NCBI GenBank assembly: GCA_003216235.1
Contig: QCJE01000009.1
Coordinates: 1-49,382 of the forward strand
DNA from: Pelagibacteraceae bacterium AG-404-P07
GTDB taxonomy: Bacteria > Pseudomonadota > Alphaproteobacteria > Pelagibacterales > Pelagibacteraceae
Direction of reading: 5' to 3'
DNA: 49,382 bases
Both the position numbers and the translations under genes were made by a program. Positions 5,459-16,171 of this stretch are shown here, piece by piece; the first letter of the stretch is position 1; every line of letters starts with the position of its first letter. The notes under the pieces were generated by a model. It did not search any database. It was given only the letters and a program-made list of their open reading frames with translations, and had not been told where the DNA came from.

Positions 5459-8233
5459 TTAATGTAATGTTCCCCAGTTATCACCTATGTTCAAATCAAC
5501 AGTTAACGGAATTGTAAATGAATGTTGGTCACTATTTGCAACACTGGACATTTCACTAATTATTATTTTACTCAATTTTTTTACCTCGTCTCTATGTGAC
5601 TCAAATATCAATTCATCATGAATTTGTAAAAGCATTTTTGATTTGAGATATTCTTCCTCATTCATTTTTTTATTTAACCTGATCATTGCTAAACGCATAA
5701 TTTCTGAAGCTGAACCTTGTATTGGTGCATTTATTGCTGCTCTCTCCTGAAAATTTCTTACATTATAATTCTTGTCATTAATGTTTATAAAATGAGATTT
5801 TCTTCCAAATATATTATTTACATAACCACTTTTTCTACAAAATTTAATTGTTTGATCCATATATACTTTAATCTCAGGAAACTTAGCAAAATAAGAATTT
5901 AAAAATTCCTCAGCTTCAAAATTTGAAACATTTATTTGTTTAGCTAAACCATATTGTGAAATACCATAAATTATTCCAAAGTTAATTGCTTTAGCTTTTC
6001 TTCTTTGATCTTGATTAATTTTTTTTATGTCCACATTAAATATTTGGCTAGCAGTTAATGAGTGTATATCTATATTATTTTTAAATGCCCTTTTAAGTTC
6101 CTTAACATCAGCAAGATCTGCTAAAATTCTCATTTCAATTTGATTGTAATCAGCTGAAATCAAAAAATGATCTTTTTGTGCAACAAAAGCTTTTCTAATA
6201 TCTTTTCCATCTTCTGATTTGATTGGAATATTTTGTAAGTTTGGGTCACTTGATGCCAATCTTCCTGTGGTTGTTGCAGCTAATAAAAAAGAGGTATGAA
6301 CTCTATTAGTTTTTGGGTTTAAATGTTCTGGAAGAGAGTCAGAATAAGTATTTTTCAATTTTGAAACCTGTCTCCAATCTAAAACTAATTTTGGAAATTT
6401 ATGACCTTTAAATGCTAGATCTTCCAAGACTATCGCACTTGTTGCAAAACTTCCTTTTTTTGTCTTTTTCAAGTCAGCAATTTTAAGCTCATTATATAAA
6501 ATTTCACCTAACTGTTTGGGTGAACCAATATTAAATTCTTTTTTTGAAATTTTAAAAACTTCTTTTTCTATTCTTTCAATTTTTTTTTTAAATTTCGATG
6601 ATAAAGATTTGAGAAATTCTTTATCTATTTTAATACCTTCTATTTCCATAAATGCTAAAATTTTAAGCATTGGCTTTTCAAAAATTTCATAAATATTTAT
6701 CATTTTTTCAGATTTAAGACTTTTTTGAAATTTTTTATATAGTCTCAAAGTAATGTCTGCATCTTCAGCCGCGTAGTCTTTTGCTTTATCAATTTCAACT
6801 TCACTAAAATTTAATTGTTTTTTTCCACTTCCAACTAAATCTTTAAATGCAATAGGTTTATGTCCTAAATGAATTTCAGACAAAGTATCCATGTTATGTC
6901 TGTTCTTACCAGCATCTAAAACATATGACATCAGCATTGTATCTTCCATCGAAGACATGTTTATTCCATGATGAAATAAAACAATAAAATCAAATTTTAT
7001 ATTTTGTCCTATTTTTCTTATACTTGGATCTTCTAGTAAAGGTTTTAGTTTTTTGATAACTAATTTTATATCAAGACAATTTTTTGACTTATGTCCTATG
7101 GGTACATAACAAGCTTTTCCTATTTTTGTACTTAATGAAATTCCAACTAATTCTGCCTGGTGTGGATCAAGAGAATTCGTTTCTGTATCCACAGCAACTT
7201 CTCCTAATTCTTCAGCCTCTTCAATCCACTTATCAAGTTTGTTAATCTCATTAATTAAATGATAATTTTTTGAATTTATTTTTTCGTGTCTAGGGGACTC
7301 TTCTAACCCTCTCTTTATACTCTCTAAATTCGGCTCTCCATAGGTAGAAATTGCCGAACTTAAAAGTCTATTAAATTCCATTTCTCTCAAAAATTTATAA
7401 AGCTTATCTTTATCAATTTCTTTTAATCTAAAATCTTCAAGATTTTGCTTAACGGGAGAATCGTTTTTCAAGGTTACTAATTTTTTACTTATTACAGCTT
7501 TGTCTTTATTTTCAATTAAAGTTTCTCTTCTTTTATTCTGTTTAATTTCATGTGCTGATTTTAATAATTTTTCTAAATTTCCATATTTATTGATTAATTC
7601 TGCAGCTGTTTTTACTCCAATACCAGGCACTCCAGGAACATTATCACTGCTATCCCCAGCTAAAGCTTGCACATCTATTACCTTGTTAGCATCAACGCCA
7701 AATTTTTTTTTTATATCTTCCTCAGAAATAAATTTATTTTTCATTGGATCAAAGATACGCACATCTTTTTTATATAATTGCATTAAATCCTTATCTGAAG
7801 ATACAATTGTAACTTTTGAACCCTTTTCTAAAATCTGATCTACATAAGTTGCGATTAGATCATCAGCTTCATAATTAGCTAACTCTACGGAAGGTAAATT
7901 GAAAGCTAATACAGATTTTCTAATATACTCAAATTGAGGGGCTAAATCATCAGGGGGGTCTGATCGGTTTGCTTTGTACTCTTTATAAATTTCATTTCTG
8001 AAAGTTTTTCTTGCAGAGTCAAAAATAACTGCAAAGTGACTTGGTTTTTGTAAATTTTGTTTTGATTTTGAGTCTTCAAGAAGTTTAAAAAGCATAGTGC
8101 AAAATCCACTTACAGCACCAGTTGGTAATCCATCACTTTTTCTGGACAGCGGAGGTAAAGCATAATATGCCCTAAAGATATAACCCGAACCATCTATTAA
8201 ATAAAAATGATCTGAATTTTTAATTTTTGTCAT
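5459..8233 (-). CDS. polA: DNA polymerase I
   Basis: A 924-residue polymerase with all three activities. The N-terminal 5'-3' exonuclease domain has IDGSGYIFRAYYALPP and the helix-hairpin-helix-like GVPGIGVKTAAEL. The 3'-5' proofreading domain keeps its acidic residues (VDTETNSLDP, IGQNIKFDF, YAAEDADITL). The polymerase domain has motif A SADYNQIEMR, motif B KAINFGIIYG and motif C QIHDELIFE. It processes Okazaki fragments and fills repair gaps. The gene is divergent from bioY with 47 bp between start codons. Unlike some streamlined bacteria, it has not lost the proofreading residues. Confidence 0.97.
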   Translation of the reverse strand: MTKIKNSDHFYLIDGSGYIFRAYYALPPLSRKSDGLPTGAVSGFCTMLFKLLEDSKSKQNLQKPSHFAVIFDSARKTFRNEIYKEYKANRSDPPDDLAPQFEYIRKSVLAFNLPSVELANYEADDLIATYVDQILEKGSKVTIVSSDKDLMQLYKKDVRIFDPMKNKFISEEDIKKKFGVDANKVIDVQALAGDSSDNVPGVPGIGVKTAAELINKYGNLEKLLKSAHEIKQNKRRETLIENKDKAVISKKLVTLKNDSPVKQNLEDFRLKEIDKDKLYKFLREMEFNRLLSSAISTYGEPNLESIKRGLEESPRHEKINSKNYHLINEINKLDKWIEEAEELGEVAVDTETNSLDPHQAELVGISLSTKIGKACYVPIGHKSKNCLDIKLVIKKLKPLLEDPSIRKIGQNIKFDFIVLFHHGINMSSMEDTMLMSYVLDAGKNRHNMDTLSEIHLGHKPIAFKDLVGSGKKQLNFSEVEIDKAKDYAAEDADITLRLYKKFQKSLKSEKMINIYEIFEKPMLKILAFMEIEGIKIDKEFLKSLSSKFKKKIERIEKEVFKISKKEFNIGSPKQLGEILYNELKIADLKKTKKGSFATSAIVLEDLAFKGHKFPKLVLDWRQVSKLKNTYSDSLPEHLNPKTNRVHTSFLLAATTTGRLASSDPNLQNIPIKSEDGKDIRKAFVAQKDHFLISADYNQIEMRILADLADVKELKRAFKNNIDIHSLTASQIFNVDIKKINQDQRRKAKAINFGIIYGISQYGLAKQINVSNFEAEEFLNSYFAKFPEIKVYMDQTIKFCRKSGYVNNIFGRKSHFININDKNYNVRNFQERAAINAPIQGSASEIMRLAMIRLNKKMNEEEYLKSKMLLQIHDELIFESHRDEVKKLSKIIISEMSSVANSDQHSFTIPLTVDLNIGDNWGTLH

Positions 8234-8280
8234 TAAATTTTATATGTAGATTCTCAATCAAAATAAGGGTATTATTTTTT

Positions 8281-8832
8281 ATGGAACTAATAAAGCAAAA
8301 TACTCAATCGAATGTTATTAAATCAATATTAATAATTCTTATAGGCTCAATAGTCCTCACAATTTCATCAAAAATAAAAATACCTTTTTACCCAGTTCCG
8401 ATGACAATGCAAACTTTTGTGGTATTATTTTTAGGTATCAGTTTTGGATATAAAATTGGCTTAGCAACTGTTGGTTTATATTTATTAGAGGGTATCGTGG
8501 GATTGCCTGTTTTTTCAAACTCACCAGAGAGAGGAGTTGGAATTATATATTTTACAGGCCCAACAATGGGTTATTTAATAGGATTTTTTTCTGCTTGCTA
8601 TATTGCATCACTCATAAAATCAAGTGATGGTTATTTGCAAATTTTTTACAAACTTATTTTATCAGTTTCAACAATTTATATTCTAGGTATCTTATGGTTA
8701 GGATACTTAATAGGATGGGATAAACCAATAATAGAATTAGGTGTAACACCTTTTCTACTTGCAGAATTTTTTAAAATTACTTTGTTGATAATTTTATCTA
8801 AAAAAATATTGAAATTAAGAAAGTTTATCTAG
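8281..8832 (+). CDS. bioY: BioY biotin transporter (ECF substrate-binding component)
   Basis: A 183-residue membrane protein with about six hydrophobic helices and the BioY signature PFYPVPMTMQTFVV near residue 35, followed by GLPVF and the FTGPTMGYLIGF region. BioY binds and imports biotin, alone or with the BioMN energizing module. The ATG at 8281 is chosen because it matches the family N-terminus and has AAGGG 11 bp upstream; an in-frame ATG at 8227 would sit inside the polA start. No bioM, bioN or biotin-synthesis gene is nearby. The last 8 bp overlap the end of the convergent regA. Confidence 0.92.
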   Translation: MELIKQNTQSNVIKSILIILIGSIVLTISSKIKIPFYPVPMTMQTFVVLFLGISFGYKIGLATVGLYLLEGIVGLPVFSNSPERGVGIIYFTGPTMGYLIGFFSACYIASLIKSSDGYLQIFYKLILSVSTIYILGILWLGYLIGWDKPIIELGVTPFLLAEFFKITLLIILSKKILKLRKFI

Positions 8833-9388
8833 GAGATCTTTTAGATAATATTCTTTGCAAAGTTCTTCTATGCATTTTTAATCTTCTTGCAGTTTCAGAT
8901 ACGTTTCTATTACAAAGCTCAAATACTCTGTGGATATGTTCCCATTTTACTCTATCTGCCGACATGGGGTTTTCAGGTGGAGCAGCTTTTTTTGATGGAT
9001 CTGCAAGCAAAGCTTTTTCAACATCATCTGCATCAGCTGGTTTAGCTAAATAGTCAATAGCACCCTCTTTAATTGCTGCAACAGCTGTTGGGATATTTCC
9101 ATAGCCTGTTAACATAATTATCCTACTTGAAGGATTGCTCAACTGTATTTCTTTTACAACCTCTAATCCATTTCCATCACCTAATCTGAGGTCAACAACT
9201 GCAAATCCTGGATTTTTTCCTTTGACCGATTCGATACCTTTTTTCACACTTTCAGCTTGTAAAACGGTAAAACCTTTTTTTTCCATAGCTCTAGCTAATC
9301 TCTCTCTAAAAGGATTATCATCATCTACTATAAGTAGAGATTTATTATCAAAATCGCCTAAATTTTGCAGTGTTCCTTGGTTTTTCAT
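8825..9388 (-). CDS. regA: Redox response regulator RegA/ActR/PrrA
   Basis: A response regulator of about 187 residues. The receiver has LLIVDDDNPFRERLARAM and the acceptor Asp in VVDLRLGDGNG (residue 66 from this start, near the Asp63 of known RegA). A proline-containing linker and a FIS-type helix-turn-helix follow (NVSETARRLKMHRRTLQRIL), which is the RegA hallmark. RegA with the kinase RegB (not in this window) controls energy-metabolism genes by redox state in Alphaproteobacteria. An in-frame GTG at 9415 would add nine residues; I prefer the ATG at 9388 for family length and the upstream TAAGGA. Its 3' end overlaps bioY. Confidence 0.92.
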   Translation of the reverse strand: MKNQGTLQNLGDFDNKSLLIVDDDNPFRERLARAMEKKGFTVLQAESVKKGIESVKGKNPGFAVVDLRLGDGNGLEVVKEIQLSNPSSRIIMLTGYGNIPTAVAAIKEGAIDYLAKPADADDVEKALLADPSKKAAPPENPMSADRVKWEHIHRVFELCNRNVSETARRLKMHRRTLQRILSKRSPR

Positions 9389-9416
9389 AATCCTTATGTG
9401 GTAATTTTTTTCCACA

Positions 9417-9460
9417 ATTCAATAGGAAATTATTTCCTTTACATTGAATAACTATTGAAT
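9417..9460. promoter_or_regulatory. Dyad and repeated heptamers between regA and the decarboxylase gene
   Basis: The 145-bp divergent gap holds a perfect inverted repeat AGGAAAT-T-ATTTCCT at 9424-9438. The heptamer ATTGAAT occurs at 9443-9449 and 9454-9460, 11 bp apart (one helical turn), and inverted as ATTCAAT at 9417-9423. This looks like an operator region that could serve both divergent genes, possibly RegA autoregulation. The binding protein is unknown and no convincing -35/-10 pair was found for either direction. Confidence 0.4.
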
Positions 9461-9533
9461 TAATTGCTCGAAATATTAAAGTTTTTAAATAAAAAGCTTT
9501 TTTTTGTTAAATTTTTTTTAGGGGGCACTTTAG

Positions 9534-10718
9534 ATGCAAAAATTTAAGTCAGTTGAGGATTTAATAAATCAACTGAAACCAGATAAACCGGTTTATTGTA
9601 TAAGAAAGAATTCCATTCTTTCTTCGTCAAATTATTTTCAAAAGAAATTTCCTGGAAAAATCCTTTATGCTGTAAAGACAAATCCACATCCAGAAATCAT
9701 AAAAACCCTCATTAAAAGTGGGATAGATCAATTTGATGTTGCTTCAATTGAAGAAATCAAATCTGTTAGAAAATTTAGTAAGTCTGCAAAATGTTCTTTT
9801 ATGCATACTGTAAAAAGCCGAGAAAGTATTAGTGATGCTTATTTTAAATATGGCATTAAAACATTTGCATTAGATACAAAAGATGAATTAATTAAAATAA
9901 TTGAAAATACGAGTGGTGCTAAGGATCTAGAACTTTTTGTAAGAGTTGCGGTTTCAAATGAACATGCGGAAATAGATTTATCAAAAAAATTTGGTGCATT
10001 AAATTCAGAAGCTGCAGGCCTATTGAGACTAGTTAAACAATATGCACATAAAATTGGGCTAAGTTTTCATGTTGGGTCACAGTGTATGCACCCAATCTCA
10101 TATGCTAAAGGAATTAAAGAAATAGGAAATATAATAAAAAGAACAAAAATAATTCCAGATTTTATAAATGTTGGAGGTGGGTTTCCTACAATTTACCCTG
10201 ACTTAATACCACAATCTTTAGATAATTACTTTAAAGAAATAATAAAAGGATTGGAGAATTTAAAATTAGGAAATTTACCAGAAATTATATGTGAACCAGG
10301 AAGAGCATTAGTTGCTGAAAGTGGTTCAACAATTGTGAGAGTTAATTTAAGAAAAAAACAAAAACTTTATATAAATGATGGAACTTATGGCACACTTTTC
10401 GATGGAGGGACACCAAATATAGTTTATCCATCAAAAATGATTAAAGATAGTTCTAATAAAATTATCTCAAAAAAATTGACTGCTTTTGATTTTTATGGTC
10501 CTACTTGTGATAGCATGGATTATATGAAGGGCCCTTTTTTATTACCGAACAATATTAAAGAAAATGACTATATCGAACTTGGTCAGTTAGGTGCATATGG
10601 ATTAACATTTAGAACAGAATTTAACGGTTTCTTTTCTAATGCAATATATGAAGTTGAGGATAATCCAATTATGAGTCTTTATGATAAAGACATTAATAAA
10701 GCCACTCTAGTTGCTTAA
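9534..10718 (+). CDS. Ornithine/lysine decarboxylase, PLP fold type III
   Basis: A 394-residue alanine-racemase-fold decarboxylase. Lys48 in LYAVKTNPHP is the PLP Schiff-base lysine. HVGSQC, NVGGGFPTIYP and CEPGRALVAESG follow as the phosphate-binding and PLP-contacting motifs, and YGPTCDSMD contains the active-site Cys325 typical of ornithine decarboxylases. The likely reaction is ornithine to putrescine; lysine to cadaverine is possible, as bifunctional forms exist. A strong purine run AGGGGG lies 8 bp before the ATG, unusual for this genome. The stop overlaps the next start by 1 bp, so this is the first gene of a three-gene polyamine operon. Confidence 0.88.
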   Translation: MQKFKSVEDLINQLKPDKPVYCIRKNSILSSSNYFQKKFPGKILYAVKTNPHPEIIKTLIKSGIDQFDVASIEEIKSVRKFSKSAKCSFMHTVKSRESISDAYFKYGIKTFALDTKDELIKIIENTSGAKDLELFVRVAVSNEHAEIDLSKKFGALNSEAAGLLRLVKQYAHKIGLSFHVGSQCMHPISYAKGIKEIGNIIKRTKIIPDFINVGGGFPTIYPDLIPQSLDNYFKEIIKGLENLKLGNLPEIICEPGRALVAESGSTIVRVNLRKKQKLYINDGTYGTLFDGGTPNIVYPSKMIKDSSNKIISKKLTAFDFYGPTCDSMDYMKGPFLLPNNIKENDYIELGQLGAYGLTFRTEFNGFFSNAIYEVEDNPIMSLYDKDINKATLVA

Positions 10719-11761
10719 TGGCTGATAAAAAAAACCTTGGACACAACAGTAAAAAAGATTTTCTAAAAAATCCAGTCGAACATATCGATATTACATCTTT
10801 TGACTCAAGAAAGATCATATCCTCTATGGAAAAAATGTCATTTGTTTCTCGAGAAACTGCGAATGCAGCAAAAATTTATAATGAGATGCTTAAAGATAAA
10901 AATTGCACAATTTTTTTGACATTAGCAGGTTCAACTTCTGCAGCTGGATGTATGAATATTTATAAAGATTTAGTTAAATTTAATATGGTAGATGCAATTG
11001 TTGCAACTGGTGCTTCTATAATTGATATGGATTTTTTTGAAGCTCTCGGTTTCAAACATTATCAGGGTTCTCAATTTCAGAATGATACAGAACTTAGAAA
11101 AAACTATATAGATAGAATATATGATACTTATATTGATGAAGACGAATTGCAAATTTGTGATAAAAAAATTTGTGAAATAGCAGACTCTTTAGAGCCAAGA
11201 AGTTATACTTCGCGAGAATTTATTCATGAAATAGGTAAATTTTTAAAAAAAAATTCAGTAAAAAAAGACTCATTAATTGAAACTGCATTCGACAATAATG
11301 TTCCAATTTTTTGTCCAGCTTTTACTGATTCAAGTGCAGGGTTTGGTTTAGTTATTCACCAAGAAAATAACCCAAAAAAACATATGACCATAGACTCGAT
11401 TAGAGAGTTTCGTGAGTTAACTGAAATTAAAATCCAATCTAAAGGCTCTGGCCTTTTTATGATTGGTGGCGGAGTGCCAAAAAATTTTATTCAGGATACT
11501 GTCATATGCGCTGAATTATTAGGAAAAGAAGTAGAAATGCATAAGTACGCTGTTCAAATTACAGTAGCAGATTCTAGAGATGGTGCTTGTAGTAGTTCAA
11601 CCTTAAAAGAAGCTAGTTCATGGGGTAAAGTTAATGTAACAAAAGAACAAATGGTTTTTGCAGAAGCAACTAGTGTATTACCCCTTATTGCTAGCGATGC
11701 TTATCATAAAGGTGAATGGAAAAATAGAGAAAAAAAAAATTTTTCTAAAATTTTTGGATAA
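10718..11761 (+). CDS. Deoxyhypusine synthase-like protein (bacterial DHS family)
   Basis: A 347-residue NAD-dependent DHS-fold protein. The catalytic lysine of human DHS (Lys329, in SWGK) aligns with Lys304 in EASSWGKV, and Glu323, Ser317 and Asp313 are matched by Glu298, Ser292 and Asp288. The spermidine-contacting His288 (KHHI) is replaced by Phe257 in KNFI, and the GSD loop at 314-316 reads GAC here. Bacteria have no eIF5A substrate, so true hypusine synthesis is unlikely. Between a decarboxylase and a ureohydrolase, the likely role is transfer of an aminobutyl-type group in polyamine synthesis, for example homospermidine. The exact substrate is unknown. Confidence 0.85.
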   Translation: MADKKNLGHNSKKDFLKNPVEHIDITSFDSRKIISSMEKMSFVSRETANAAKIYNEMLKDKNCTIFLTLAGSTSAAGCMNIYKDLVKFNMVDAIVATGASIIDMDFFEALGFKHYQGSQFQNDTELRKNYIDRIYDTYIDEDELQICDKKICEIADSLEPRSYTSREFIHEIGKFLKKNSVKKDSLIETAFDNNVPIFCPAFTDSSAGFGLVIHQENNPKKHMTIDSIREFRELTEIKIQSKGSGLFMIGGGVPKNFIQDTVICAELLGKEVEMHKYAVQITVADSRDGACSSSTLKEASSWGKVNVTKEQMVFAEATSVLPLIASDAYHKGEWKNREKKNFSKIFG

Positions 11762-11766
11762 ATAAA

Positions 11767-12642
11767 TTGGAATATCTATCAAATAAAAATGGTTTTCTTG
11801 GAATCGATAATAAATTTAATTTTAAAGAAAAAGTTGTTATTATTCCTTTTGGTTTAGAAAAAACTGTAAGTTATGGTAGTGGAACAAAAAATGGTCCTAA
11901 AGAAATAATAAAAGCATCACACCAAGTTGAGTTATATGACGAAGAATTAAATTGTGAACCTTATAAGAAAATTGGTATCAAAACCTTAAAACCTTTTAAA
12001 ATAGAAAAAAATATTAATAAAGCTCTAAAAAAAATGAGTGATATTAATAAAAAAATTTTGGATAAGAAACTTTTTCCAATGACTTTTGGAGGAGAGCACT
12101 CAATTACACCAGGGTGTATAAATCCTTTTGTAAAAAAATATAAAAAAATTTGTCTTTTACATTTCGATGCACATGCAGATTTAAGAGAGAGTTATAATGG
12201 TGAAAAATTTTCTCATGCTTCAGCAATAAGGAGATGTTTGGACCACAAAAATGTGTCTGTTATATCTTTTGGAATAAGAAATATATCACAAAGTGAAATT
12301 CCTTTTTTGAAAAAAAACTCCTCTAGAATCAAAATTTTCTGGGCTAAGGATAAAACTAAATGGGATCTTCAAAATTTTAGAAAACTTATAAAGGATAAAA
12401 TTGTATATCTAACATTTGATGTTGATGGGTTTGACTCTAGTATCATGCCAGCAACTGGCACGCCGGAACCCGGTGGTTTATTATGGGATGAAACTTTAGA
12501 TATAATCAAAATAGCTTCTAAAAATTCAAATATTGTAGGTGCAGATATTAATGAATTATCCCCAATTAAAGGATTCAATTCTTATAATTTTTTAGTTGCA
12601 AAATTAGCCTACAAAATTCTTTCTTACAAATTTCTTTACTAA
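11767..12642 (+). CDS. speB: Agmatinase-type ureohydrolase (arginase family)
   Basis: A 291-residue binuclear-manganese hydrolase. The metal-binding motifs are GGEHSITPG, HFDAHADLRE and TFDVDGFDSSIMP, with TGTPEPGG after the third. Family members release urea from agmatine, arginine or guanidino acids; agmatine to putrescine is the best guess given the polyamine neighbours. The start is TTG at 11767, 5 bp after the previous stop, because no in-frame ATG lies before the conserved region. The stop directly abuts the convergent yhhQ stop. The gene could alternatively act on a guanidino product of the DHS-like enzyme. Confidence 0.85.
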   Translation: MEYLSNKNGFLGIDNKFNFKEKVVIIPFGLEKTVSYGSGTKNGPKEIIKASHQVELYDEELNCEPYKKIGIKTLKPFKIEKNINKALKKMSDINKKILDKKLFPMTFGGEHSITPGCINPFVKKYKKICLLHFDAHADLRESYNGEKFSHASAIRRCLDHKNVSVISFGIRNISQSEIPFLKKNSSRIKIFWAKDKTKWDLQNFRKLIKDKIVYLTFDVDGFDSSIMPATGTPEPGGLLWDETLDIIKIASKNSNIVGADINELSPIKGFNSYNFLVAKLAYKILSYKFLY

Positions 12643-13191
12643 CTATATCGGTTTAAATGTTTTTAATAACATTCTAAAGGGTATCAACATAATTAAAGCA
12701 ACAATAAATTTTACTGACAGATCACCCAATGATAATGTAACCCAAGGCACTCCTGTTCCATAAAAAGAAATCGAAAAAAATAAAAAAGTATCAATGGTAG
12801 ATCCTATTAGTGATGAAGTTAAAGGTGCAATAAACCATTTTTTTTTTCTAAGATTATCAAAAATTTGAACATCTAATAATTGAGCAACTAAAAAAGCCGT
12901 TCCTGAACCTATAGCAATTCTAATTGATATATAATCAGCAAAATTAGTTGAAAATATAAATGTAAAACTTATTCCGATGATGAAACCAATATAAACTATT
13001 TTTCTTGCAATTTTTTTTCCATATGAACGATTTGCAAGATCTGTAATTAAAAAAGCTATAGGATAGCTAAATGCTCCATAAGTTAATATTTCATTTAAAC
13101 CATAGTAATTTATAGGAAATTGAACAAGATAGTTTGATGATAAAACAACAACTCCCATCAAAAATGATAGAAGAATTAATGATTTATTCAT
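12643..13191 (-). CDS. yhhQ: Queuosine precursor transporter, YhhQ/VUT family
   Basis: A 182-residue integral membrane protein with about six helices. The family motifs FLITDLANRSYGKK near residue 50 and GSGTAFLVAQLLDVQIFDNLR near residue 95 are present, followed by the characteristic SSLIGSTIDTFLFF. YhhQ proteins import preQ0/preQ1 for queuosine modification of tRNA; no queuosine gene is visible here to confirm this. The start overlaps the rpmB stop by 1 bp, so it is translated from the rpmB transcript. The stop abuts speB from the opposite strand. Confidence 0.88.
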   Translation of the reverse strand: MNKSLILLSFLMGVVVLSSNYLVQFPINYYGLNEILTYGAFSYPIAFLITDLANRSYGKKIARKIVYIGFIIGISFTFIFSTNFADYISIRIAIGSGTAFLVAQLLDVQIFDNLRKKKWFIAPLTSSLIGSTIDTFLFFSISFYGTGVPWVTLSLGDLSVKFIVALIMLIPFRMLLKTFKPI

Positions 13192-13505
13192 TAAGCAGAT
13201 TTAGATTGAATAGATTTTTTTTGATATGGAGACTTAATTAATAAACTTTTTTTTAGTTTTTTTAATCTGGGTGATAAGTTTTTGTTCTTAACAGTTTTTA
13301 AAAACTCATCAAAACTACCTCTTTTATCTACAGATCTTACTCCAGCATTACTGACCGTTAGCTTTAAACTTCTTTTCAATAATTCACTTGTGAATTTTAC
13401 TTTCTTTAAATTTGGTAAAAATCTTCTTTTAGTCTTATTATTAGCATGACTTACGTTATGCCCTTTCATGGGAATTTTTCCAGTTAGTTCACATTTTTTT
13501 GACAT
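13191..13505 (-). CDS. rpmB: Ribosomal protein L28 (bL28)
   Basis: A 104-residue basic protein beginning with the L28 signature [20 protein letters not shown], then KRRFLPNL and [19 protein letters not shown]. The C-terminus is lysine-rich. Length is typical for alphaproteobacterial bL28. The single cysteine near the N-terminus suggests a form without the four-cysteine zinc site. It is 51 bp downstream of pyrD and probably shares its transcript with yhhQ. Confidence 0.95.
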
Positions 13506-13556
13506 AATAAGAGGACTATATAAGGTTAGATATTAACCACGTCAAGTTTAATACAA

Positions 13557-14609
13557 TTAAGTGGTTGTTTTATTTCCCACAATTTCACTAAAATTTTTAA
13601 CCCCATCTTTTATTAATAATTCTTTAAGCTCTTTTTTAATCATACTTACTATCTTTGGACCTCTGTAAACCATACCTGTATAAAGTTGAACATAATTAGC
13701 ACCAGCCAAGAATTTTTCATAAGCACTTTCTCCTGAGTCTACACCACCTACACCTATAATCTTTATTCTCCCTTTCAATAAATCATAAAATTTACTAATC
13801 AAAATTGTAGATTTTATCTTTAGTGGTTTACCAGATAAACCACCTTTCTGATGCTTTTGAATATTGGTCAAATTATCTCTTGTTGTGTCTGAAGTATTTG
13901 AAATTATGACTCCCTCAATATCATTATCCAAAAGAACATCAGAGATATTATTAATTTCTATATCATTAATATCGGGTGATACTTTAACTACAATTGGAAT
14001 TTTTGAACCTAAATTTTTTTTCTCTTTTTCAATATTTTTTAATAAATTGTTTAGTTTTGACTGATCATGAAAATTTCTTAAGTTTTCTGTATTCGGAGAT
14101 GAAATATTAATAGTTATATAATCAGCAACATCACAAAAAGTTTTTAAACATTCAATATAATCAGCTTCTCTGTTACTTGTGTCTTTATTGGGTCCTACAT
14201 TAATCCCAAGAATACCTATTTGTTGATTAGATTTAATTCTACTAACTATATTTTTTGCACCATTATTATTAAATCCAAGTCTATTTATTAAAGCCTCATC
14301 CTCTACTAACCTAAAAACTCTGGGTTTTGGATTACCATATTGTTTTAATGGTGTAATTGTTCCAACTTCAACAAAGCCAAAGCCTAATTTGAATAATGAA
14401 TTGTATACCTCTGCATTCTTATCAAAACCTGCGGCCATACCTATTGGATTCTCAATTTCTTTTCCAAATAATTCATTTTTAAACAATGGATCATTTTCAA
14501 TTTCATTAGATAAGTTCGGTACAAAATTAAATTTTAATGATTTAATTGCTAAATTATGTGCAGTTTCAGGATCTAATTTAAAAATTAATGATCTAATATT
14601 TGAAAACAT
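13557..14609 (-). CDS. pyrD: Dihydroorotate dehydrogenase (quinone), class 2
   Basis: A 350-residue FMN enzyme that oxidizes dihydroorotate to orotate and passes electrons to the quinone pool. The N-terminal amphipathic extension (IRSLIFKLDPETAHNLAIKSL) marks the membrane-associated class 2 type. FMN and substrate motifs include GMAAGFDKNAEV, NRLGFNNNGA, NISSPNTENLR with the catalytic-serine region, and GVGGVDSGESAYEK. The start overlaps the lysK stop by 1 bp. The products have no functional link, so the pairing looks like simple packing. Confidence 0.96.
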   Translation of the reverse strand: MFSNIRSLIFKLDPETAHNLAIKSLKFNFVPNLSNEIENDPLFKNELFGKEIENPIGMAAGFDKNAEVYNSLFKLGFGFVEVGTITPLKQYGNPKPRVFRLVEDEALINRLGFNNNGAKNIVSRIKSNQQIGILGINVGPNKDTSNREADYIECLKTFCDVADYITINISSPNTENLRNFHDQSKLNNLLKNIEKEKKNLGSKIPIVVKVSPDINDIEINNISDVLLDNDIEGVIISNTSDTTRDNLTNIQKHQKGGLSGKPLKIKSTILISKFYDLLKGRIKIIGVGGVDSGESAYEKFLAGANYVQLYTGMVYRGPKIVSMIKKELKELLIKDGVKNFSEIVGNKTTT

Positions 14610-16171
14610 TATTTTATTTTATTTTCTATAAGATCTTTAGTTTCTTTAACACCAAAAAAACTTATAAAAAATCCCATTCTTGGTCCATTTTCATCTCCAA
14701 ATACAACCTGGTAAATCAATTTGAACCAGTTTCTTAAATTTTCAGAATAACCATTTTCCTTGCCTGTTGAATAAATCAAAGATTGAATATCTTCTGGAGA
14801 CATTTCATCATTACATTTATCAAGTGTTTTAACCAAAGCCTCTAAAGCTATTTTTTCTTCTTTATTAGGAGTCTTGTATTTTTTTTGTGCTTTTATTACC
14901 TCGTTAAAATATTTAATTGCATAACCAACCAAATTATCAAAAATTGGATGGTTTTTTTCTGATATATTTTTTTTGTACTTTTTTACAAATTTCCACAATA
15001 GTTCTTTATTATTGGCATTGCTTGTCTCGACGAGATTTAGAAGCATTGAAAAAGACATTATCAAATTTTCTTTTGGAACATTACTGTCATGAACATGCCA
15101 TACAGGATTCATTAATATTTGAAGTTCATTTTGATTTTTTGATTTTTCAATAAAATCTAAATATTCATCAACTGTTTTTGGAACAATTTCTTTATAAAGT
15201 TTTTTTGCTCTTTTAGGATTTTGATACATATACAATGATAAACTTTCGGGCGAAGCGTAATTGAGCCATTGATCTATCGTGATACCATTACCTTTTGATT
15301 TAGAAATTTTTTCACCTTTTTCGTCTAAAAATAATTCATAAGCAAATCCAGATGGTTGTATTTTTCCAATTAATTTAATTATTTTTGTCGAAAGAATAGC
15401 ACTTTCAATTAAATCTTTTCCATACATCTCAAAGTCTACATCAAGAGCATACCATCGCATTGCCCAGTCAACCTTCCATTGTAATTTACAATTACCATCC
15501 AAAATACTTATTTCTAAATCCTTACCTTTATTGTCAAAAATTATTTTTGATTTTTCTACATTCAATTCTTTTACTGGAATCTCTAAAACATGGCCTGTCT
15601 CAGGACATATTGGTAAAAAAGGACTGTAGGTTTTTTGTCTTTCTTTACCTAATGTTGGTAATATAATATTCATTACATCAGCATAATTCTCTAAAATAAT
15701 TTGAAGAGTTGAATTAAAAAAACCTGTTTTATATAGTTCTGTTGAGCTTTTAAAAATATATTTAAATTTAAAGTTATCTAAAAATTTTTTTAACATTTCA
15801 TTGTTATGTTTTCCAAAACTATTAAATTTTTTAAAAGGGTCTGGAACTTGTGTAAGAGGTTTATGAAGATTCTTTTTTAATAATTCTTTTTCAGGCACAT
15901 TTTCTGGTACTTTTCTTAATCCATCCATATCATCTGAAAAAGTAATAATTTCAGTTGGAAGATCAGTTAAATGTTTTAGAGCATTAACAATCATTGAAGT
16001 TCTTGCAACCTCTCCAAACGTGCCAATATGAGGCAATCCACTAGGTCCATAGCCTGTTTGAAGAGTAATTTTTCCTTTTTTTTCTATATAAGTTTTTCTC
16101 TCTCTGAGCATTTTTTTTGCTTCAACAAAAGGCCAGGCAGTAGTTTTATCTAAATTTTCTTTTTTAATCAT
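14609..16171 (-). CDS. lysK: Class I lysyl-tRNA synthetase
   Basis: A 520-residue synthetase of the archaeal-type class I family, the form normal in Alphaproteobacteria in place of class II LysS. The HIGH-type motif HIGT is at 48-51 in GPSGLPHIGTFGEV and the KMSKS-type motif KISKS at 288-292. The C-terminal half is helical with the anticodon-binding cage domain. It charges tRNA-Lys, a heavily used tRNA in a genome this rich in AAA codons. The gene is divergent from trkH with 89 bp between starts. Confidence 0.95.
   Translation of the reverse strand: MIKKENLDKTTAWPFVEAKKMLRERKTYIEKKGKITLQTGYGPSGLPHIGTFGEVARTSMIVNALKHLTDLPTEIITFSDDMDGLRKVPENVPEKELLKKNLHKPLTQVPDPFKKFNSFGKHNNEMLKKFLDNFKFKYIFKSSTELYKTGFFNSTLQIILENYADVMNIILPTLGKERQKTYSPFLPICPETGHVLEIPVKELNVEKSKIIFDNKGKDLEISILDGNCKLQWKVDWAMRWYALDVDFEMYGKDLIESAILSTKIIKLIGKIQPSGFAYELFLDEKGEKISKSKGNGITIDQWLNYASPESLSLYMYQNPKRAKKLYKEIVPKTVDEYLDFIEKSKNQNELQILMNPVWHVHDSNVPKENLIMSFSMLLNLVETSNANNKELLWKFVKKYKKNISEKNHPIFDNLVGYAIKYFNEVIKAQKKYKTPNKEEKIALEALVKTLDKCNDEMSPEDIQSLIYSTGKENGYSENLRNWFKLIYQVVFGDENGPRMGFFISFFGVKETKDLIENKIK

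Follow-up and report, generated by a model that had tools for sequence, protein, structure and literature searches.

A conserved SAR11 polyamine operon built around an enzyme of the caldomycin synthase family

The window examined here, a stretch of 49,382 nucleotides, is contig QCJE01000009.1 of the SAR11 bacterium Pelagibacteraceae bacterium AG-404-P07, whose assembled genome comprises 937 kb in 42 contigs and is 78.9% complete. The open reading frame (ORF) listing locates in it a polyamine operon of three plus-strand ORFs at 9534-12642, with an enzyme resembling deoxyhypusine synthase (DHS) in the middle:

9534-10718, plus strand: predicted arginine decarboxylase (pyridoxal phosphate-dependent, alanine-racemase fold, derived from ornithine decarboxylase), 394 amino acids, Pfam PF02784/PF00278
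10716-10720, plus strand: TAATG stop/start overlap of the decarboxylase and DHS-like genes, read from the sequence
10718-11761, plus strand: DHS-like coupling enzyme of the caldomycin synthase (CdmS) family, 347 amino acids, NF002699
11767-12642, plus strand: ureohydrolase of the agmatinase/arginase family, 291 amino acids, TTG start, TIGR01230

The decarboxylase stop and the DHS-like start have one base in common, and 5 bp separate the DHS-like gene from the ureohydrolase gene, which is the linkage that a first-pass annotation of this DNA had described. The TAATG junction is kept in 29 of the 31 Pelagibacteraceae loci read (30 best-scoring loci and one more; the exceptions are L134 and L007), so translational coupling of decarboxylase and DHS-like enzyme is not a product of chance. 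Decarboxylase, DHS-like and ureohydrolase genes occur together in 28 of these loci; the ureohydrolase directly follows the DHS-like gene in 27, and in L154 it lies about 0.8 kb after it. All three window proteins exceed the Pfam cut-off of their family (Orn_Arg_deC, DS and Arginase), and the operon is real, conserved and interpretable.

The DHS-like protein scores 576.1 bits against the equivalog model NF002699 (cut-off 500), which is also passed by two Thermus relatives, L068 and L072 of T. arciformis and T. brockianus (541.2 and 545.1 bits). It is 55-56% identical to those two proteins, and 26% identical to a Nostoc-type SpeY, 27% to a Haloferax DHS and 31% to human DHS over the aligned part. 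Against the SpeY model NF001980 it reaches only 182.7 bits (cut-off 450), where Nostoc SpeY reaches 591.8, and it falls below every cut-off of the deoxyhypusine synthase equivalogs (TIGR00321 and the PRK DHS models listed). Membership of the DHS fold superfamily is clear (PF01916, 325.5 bits against a cut-off of 27, with the catalytic lysine kept); PF01916 is the only match, with no sign in this protein of the homospermidine synthase (HSS) fold related to carboxyspermidine dehydrogenase, and the genome was not searched for a separate HSS gene. An AlphaFold2 model built from a 40-row alignment had a mean predicted local distance difference test (pLDDT) score of 91.5 and a predicted template modelling score (pTM) of 0.91, with pLDDT below 50 at residues 288-291, the loop containing C291. 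The best 50 Foldseek matches in the PDB were all deoxyhypusine synthases (TM score by query length 0.71-0.79), and the root-mean-square deviation on superposition was 2.5 on the archaeal 8put and 6-7 or more on most human chains; the model is a monomer. In a tree of 101 rows, the NF002699 family forms one side of a branch (support 98/96) against three outgroup rows that sit on very long branches. Judged by its sequence, the DHS-like enzyme belongs to the CdmS family and not to the SpeY family. The automatic NCBI model already carries this name, and the annotation itself is not new.

Seven pocket residues have been named in Thermus CdmS, namely S67, E136, D143, F204, L286, E293 and K299 (PMC10981699). 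All seven are present in the T. arciformis and T. brockianus proteins (S62, E131, D138, F199, L281, E288 and K294), and because the shift to both is constant (5) the mapping of residues is sound. The window protein has six of the seven, likewise at a constant shift of 5: S72, E141, D148, F209, E298 and K304. Residues S72, E141, D148, N256, E298 and K304 are found in 98 of 98 family rows, F209 in 96 and F257 in 97; these rows are a 100-row set minus two Haloferax rows. The residue and tree sets exclude L018 (cut DHS) and L019 (divergent DHS), and L001 and L009 were dropped from the counts as copies of the window. At sites 72, 141 and 209 two Nostoc-type SpeY sequences carry Ala, Tyr and Met; they agree with the window protein at N256, F257, Asp148 and Glu298, and have Leu at 291. 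Positions Ser72, Glu141 and Phe209 thus appear to separate agmatine-type from putrescine-type enzymes better than the KNF and GAC positions do.

The KNF and GAC positions had been central to the first-pass annotation. Aligned with human DHS, Lys304 corresponds to the catalytic Lys329, E298 to E323 and W302 to W327, and the human GSD loop (314-316) to GAC at 289-291, with D316 equivalent to C291; the lysine and the loop had both been identified correctly. Human K287-H288-H289 aligns with K255-N256-F257, so the proposed pairing of His288 with Phe257 was off by one: His288 is Asn256, and Phe257 corresponds to His289. A larger change from human DHS, Asp243 to Phe209, had been missed. The argument for an altered site built on residues 257 and 291 is not diagnostic, because both KNF and the loss of Asp316 occur in the two SpeY sequences and the latter also in the Haloferax DHS; these features alone are no sign of a new substrate, and the KNF motif and GAC loop were rejected as a substrate switch.

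No NCBIfam model scores over its cut-off for the decarboxylase. Its nearest solved chains are lysine and ornithine decarboxylases, followed by the viral arginine decarboxylase 2nv9, and it shares 85% identity with a same-genus copy and 62% with two copies in SAR11 operons with a deiminase in place of the ureohydrolase. Decarboxylases of such clusters from Ca. Pelagibacter (394 amino acids) and Ca. Fonsibacter (WP_075506504 and WP_099339815) were active on arginine only, and not on ornithine or lysine (PMC9992855). By analogy with these two assayed SAR11 homologues, the window decarboxylase is predicted to make agmatine from arginine; its length of 394 amino acids equals that of the Pelagibacter enzyme and the cluster context is the same. 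The GPTCD of its GPTCDS motif (window 10497-10514), the specificity-helix motif of the ornithine decarboxylase type, is unchanged although the homologues are arginine-specific, so that the preference for arginine may be set by a residue elsewhere.

The operon ureohydrolase scores 205.1 bits against TIGR01230 (agmatinase, cut-off 174.3), a broad model that also takes the Thermus ureohydrolase candidate. It stays below the agmatinase model PRK02190 (119 against 302), which is not decisive on substrate. Its metal-site motifs GGEHS, DAHAD and DVDGFD are intact, and its best solved relatives are the putative agmatinase 3lhl and the guanidinobutyrase 3nio. It is the single TIGR01230 match in the window genome, at the 79% completeness of that assembly. 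A genome of the same genus (G207) has a second ureohydrolase (C1:407743-408570, L164) that passes PRK02190 (313.7 against 302) and is 25% identical to the operon copy of the window.

Taken together, we consider it probable that the operon turns arginine into homospermidine by a route of the Thermus caldomycin type, in which agmatine would be the amine coupled in this ureohydrolase-type operon. The decarboxylase would convert arginine to agmatine; the DHS-like enzyme would oxidise one agmatine with NAD, holding the imine on Lys304, would transfer it to another agmatine, held with its guanidinium end near Glu141/Asp148, and would reduce the product to 1,9-bis(guanidino)-5-azanonane (caldomycin). 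We infer this second step because of the family, the pocket residues and the model given in the CdmS paper. The ureohydrolase would then strip both guanidino groups as urea to leave sym-homospermidine, and putrescine would not be required as an intermediate.

The closest known system is that of Thermus thermophilus, where CdmS (TTHA1570) couples two agmatines to caldomycin without using putrescine or spermidine, and CdmS together with the ureohydrolase TtSpeBap yields homospermidine in vitro (PMC10981699). The window shares with it the NF002699 equivalog, six of seven pocket residues, a TIGR01230 ureohydrolase partner and agmatine as the starting amine, and differs in having Cys291 for Leu286, the genes in one coupled operon and a decarboxylase of the alanine-racemase fold derived from ornithine decarboxylase; the sequences compared were those of the T. 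arciformis and T. brockianus relatives of TTHA1570. Cyanobacterial SpeY (NF001980; the Anabaena homospermidine synthase) is likewise a DHS homologue that makes homospermidine and has KNF and the loss of Asp316, but it is 26% identical, has Ala/Tyr/Met at the Ser72/Glu141/Phe209 sites and lies outside the family on the tree. In Haloferax, a DHS-type enzyme has been proposed to act on agmatine, with trimming by the agmatinase-like HVO_2299 (PMC5178350), but the substrate there is the protein aIF5A, and a plasmid-encoded Haloferax DHS, at 27% identity, retains both histidines of the human H288-H289 pair. The archaeal parallel drawn by the first-pass annotation is only that of a cousin, the closer relative being Thermus CdmS, which it had not named. 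Its proposal of a guanidino donor, ureohydrolase trimming and homospermidine is well supported by the family, the pocket residues and the arginine-specific decarboxylase, while the exchange of partner genes described below keeps a putrescine-first order alive. The clusters of ornithine/arginine decarboxylase and DHS/SpeY in Ca. Pelagibacter and Ca. Fonsibacter (PMC9992855) are the same cluster and share the 394-residue decarboxylase length; that paper names the DHS-like gene SpeY, a homospermidine synthase, with no assay of it in the text consulted, whereas we place it in the CdmS family.

At the level of the order, 185 of the 247 genomes had an NF002699 match (over cut-off in 182), every one of them in the family of the window, which corresponds to 185 of about 194 sampled genomes of that family and 0 of 53 outside it; both figures take 42 unlisted misses as non-family genomes from the order of the list, nine listed family genomes being without a match. 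Two genomes of family f159, in the same order, have no spermidine synthase match either. Among 289 alphaproteobacterial genomes 18 match (16 over cut-off), and among 14 named control genomes 7 do (3 over cut-off). The search for partners covered 50 of the 80 cross-phylum genomes; 40 of these carry either an agmatinase-family enzyme that exceeds the cut-off or a strong agmatine deiminase, which counts in favour of the agmatine route. A deiminase was counted as strong above our own threshold of 250 bits to PF04371, which leaves weaker ones uncounted (such as that of G322 at 186), as are ureohydrolases below the TIGR01230 cut-off (such as that of G291, 173.4 against 174.3).

Several observations weigh against the coupling of agmatine in SAR11. 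The seventh CdmS site, Leu286, is C291 in the window protein; of the 98 family rows, 72 have Leu at position 291 and 26 have Cys, and the Cys291 group is a single clade of 26 on the tree (100/100), matching the 26 Cys rows. Conservation just around Glu141 is partly by construction, since the 80 cross-phylum rows were recruited by two short patterns, one of which stops a few residues short of E141. Identity between the operon ureohydrolase and the candidate ureohydrolase of Thermus is only 28.7%. In the literature consulted we met no assay of a SAR11 enzyme of the CdmS family. Native homospermidine has been reported in SAR11 strain HTCC1062, which agrees with the route, but HTCC7211 was reported with spermidine alone, and feeding it norspermidine raised spermidine and homospermidine, which the authors suggested Dys2 might explain (PMC8437039).

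A further point is an exchange of partner genes. Sixteen alphaproteobacterial genomes hold a full-length member of the family. In ten of them a ureohydrolase over cut-off lies next to it and there is no deiminase; the other six have a deiminase and no ureohydrolase over cut-off, with a weak one in two (Fisher p = 1.2e-4, kinship not corrected); G220, whose DHS-like gene is cut by a contig end and which has both partners, and G219, with a divergent DHS, lie outside this set. The deiminase is directly beside the DHS-like gene in G115, within about 4 kb in G063 and G278, and elsewhere in three. Among the 50 named genomes of many phyla, 23 have a ureohydrolase over cut-off and 20 a strong deiminase, 3 having both and 10 neither (p = 4e-4). 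Within the SAR11 family, a deiminase replaces the ureohydrolase in 3 of the 31 loci; two of these belong to genus g224 and the third to g226. In two deiminase-type SAR11 loci scanned, an N-carbamoylputrescine amidase-like gene is followed by an agmatine deiminase-like gene, with scores below the curated cut-offs (311 and 313 against 410; 253 against 382), and an amidase accompanies the deiminase in the three loci checked (G390, G522 and G115).

The coupling enzyme follows agmatine chemistry and stays almost constant when one guanidine-removing partner gives way to another. In genus g226, one ureohydrolase-type and one deiminase-type genome have DHS-like proteins that are 87.6% identical and equal at 53 of 54 conserved and pocket positions, Leu69 to Ile being the sole change; the g224 deiminase-type enzymes differ from a ureohydrolase-type one at two of the 54. 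Both g224 enzymes carry Gln at 143, and one of them has Tyr at 257. None of the seven positions named in CdmS separates ureohydrolase-linked from deiminase-linked enzymes. On the tree the partner label changes 12 times, well-supported branches force at least six changes for each main label, and the labels are more clustered than in any shuffle. An exchange with constant CdmS positions fits two readings: a deiminase and amidase trim caldomycin, or the coupling uses putrescine.

Some candidate explanations of partner choice were tried and rejected. A residue switch between partner classes was absent from the seven CdmS positions, and the best column was 270 (window 11525-11527), which is Lys in 17 of 30 ureohydrolase-linked enzymes and mostly aromatic or His in 23 deiminase-linked ones, a split that may be due to kinship only. 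Presence of spermidine synthase gave a trend only (p = 0.15), with PF01564 matches in six of the ten ureohydrolase-type alphaproteobacterial genomes and in one of the six deiminase-type ones, where the match is weak (41.8 bits); deiminase-type G522 has a match as well. That linked deiminases form a special subfamily had a weak hint in the lower aguA scores of six linked ones among 83 genomes (p = 0.025); this test has no correction for kinship, its 83 values were entered manually after summing fragments, and G052, G091 and G103 (of 86 with a match) were omitted because their matches were weak only.

Of the two readings, the simpler for the exchange has putrescine first: the ureohydrolase would be a plain agmatinase, and the DHS-like enzyme would couple two putrescines, as SpeY does. 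Agmatinase and the deiminase/amidase couple both yield putrescine from agmatine. In SAR11 the amidase and agmatine deiminase pair occupies the ureohydrolase slot beside a coupling enzyme nearly unchanged in g226, and the label switches repeatedly on the tree; the textbook specificity of agmatine deiminase and parsimony favour putrescine coupling. This order has been drawn for Pelagibacter and Fonsibacter (PMC9992855) and proposed for Zymomonas, which has the same pair, with the deiminase and amidase genes at other places, and in which homospermidine is the main polyamine (PMC8594446). However, the SpeY family (NF001980) lies outside the family of the window enzyme, at 26% identity and without Ser72/Glu141 in the two SpeY sequences; Thermus CdmS, the one member of the family for which we found an assay, does not accept putrescine (PMC10981699); and the second ureohydrolase of G207 passes PRK02190, so that the operon copy may be unneeded as a plain agmatinase. 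Family membership, the contrast with SpeY and the CdmS assay favour agmatine coupling, and we regard putrescine first as unlikely, though a serious competitor. A mixed outcome, with agmatine coupled in one branch and putrescine in another, is possible.

The other reading is offered tentatively: the coupling enzyme would always make caldomycin, and its stripping would be interchangeable, by a ureohydrolase releasing urea or by a deiminase and carbamoyl amidase acting on caldomycin, so that agmatine and not putrescine would be the hub of SAR11 polyamines. We know of no report of a deiminase and carbamoyl amidase acting on caldomycin. If this is true, a caldomycin-trimming deiminase is expected in deiminase-type SAR11 operons and in Chlorobi and Verrucomicrobia with the family enzyme, and Zymomonas would probably have it too. 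A similar branch through aminopropylagmatine may lead to spermidine.

A spermidine-dependent homospermidine synthase, or a spermidine-cleaving enzyme, with the chemistry of plant HSS or eukaryotic DHS, seems highly improbable. The DHS fold, NAD-linked chemistry and catalytic lysine are retained and the DHS-like plant HSS uses spermidine and putrescine (PMC10981699), but human Asp243, His288 and Asp316 are Phe, Asn and Cys in the window protein, and a PF01564 spermidine synthase match was absent from 7 of the 18 genomes searched in one set and from 31 of the 60 in another, nearly all with the family enzyme. The rise of spermidine and homospermidine in HTCC7211 on norspermidine would suit such an enzyme, but feeding spermidine did not significantly raise homospermidine in either SAR11 strain, and dys2, discussed as a homospermidine synthase or a spermidine-cleaving enzyme, was judged not to be mainly the former (PMC8437039). 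Least credible of all is a modification in which a lysine of EF-P or some other protein receives a guanidinobutyl or aminobutyl group that the ureohydrolase then trims, as in the Haloferax aIF5A model with its DHS-linked agmatinase-like gene (PMC5178350), since no eIF5A scored over cut-off in 18 genomes including that of the window (79% complete; two weak matches, 20-21 bits), which bears out the first-pass annotation on the missing substrate, the one Haloferax DHS compared is 27% identical, outside the family and without Ser72/Glu141/Phe209, and deletion of cdmS in Thermus abolished homospermidine and homospermine (PMC10981699).

The operon stands as an isolated unit: a response-regulator gene in divergent orientation lies upstream of it, with a BioY gene beyond, and the gene of a Vut_1 transporter adjoins the operon tail to tail; an Rfam search of 7000-16000 gave no riboswitch or other RNA up to E 1. 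Elsewhere, a different alphaproteobacterial operon (L171:2305-6438, in G219) combines a decarboxylase of the aspartate aminotransferase fold, a spermidine synthase (213.9 bits) and an agmatinase (276 bits) with a divergent DHS-like protein whose scores stay below all NCBIfam DHS cut-offs (the best is NF001980, 113 against 450). A plasmid-borne NF002699 copy lies beside rocD in L020:4998-6041 (Trichormus variabilis plasmid A) and in L023, with no annotated ureohydrolase or decarboxylase within the 5-kb flanks, and the Nostoc genome of L023 additionally has SpeY (NF001980, 592 bits).

The pathway itself is essentially known, and the window enzyme is a very widespread addition to a recently described kind of enzyme. 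Both partner types, arginase/agmatinase and AIH plus NCPAH, had already been published for the SAR11 cluster (PMC9992855); what is new here is the placement in the CdmS family, the presence throughout the window's family (185 of about 194 genomes) and the repeated exchange of partners with the seven CdmS positions unchanged. A search of open-licence papers found no link between SAR11 and caldomycin. SAR11 bacteria are among the most abundant marine cells, and they import polyamines and turn them over. Feeding studies of SAR11 followed seven target amines, neither caldomycin nor aminobutylagmatine among them, and left dys2 unexplained (PMC8437039). If agmatine is what is coupled, those feeding data need re-reading, the labels "deoxyhypusine synthase" and "SpeY" mislead for the CdmS family in many phyla, and the repeated exchange of ureohydrolase and deiminase would directly test the reach of the trimming enzymes.

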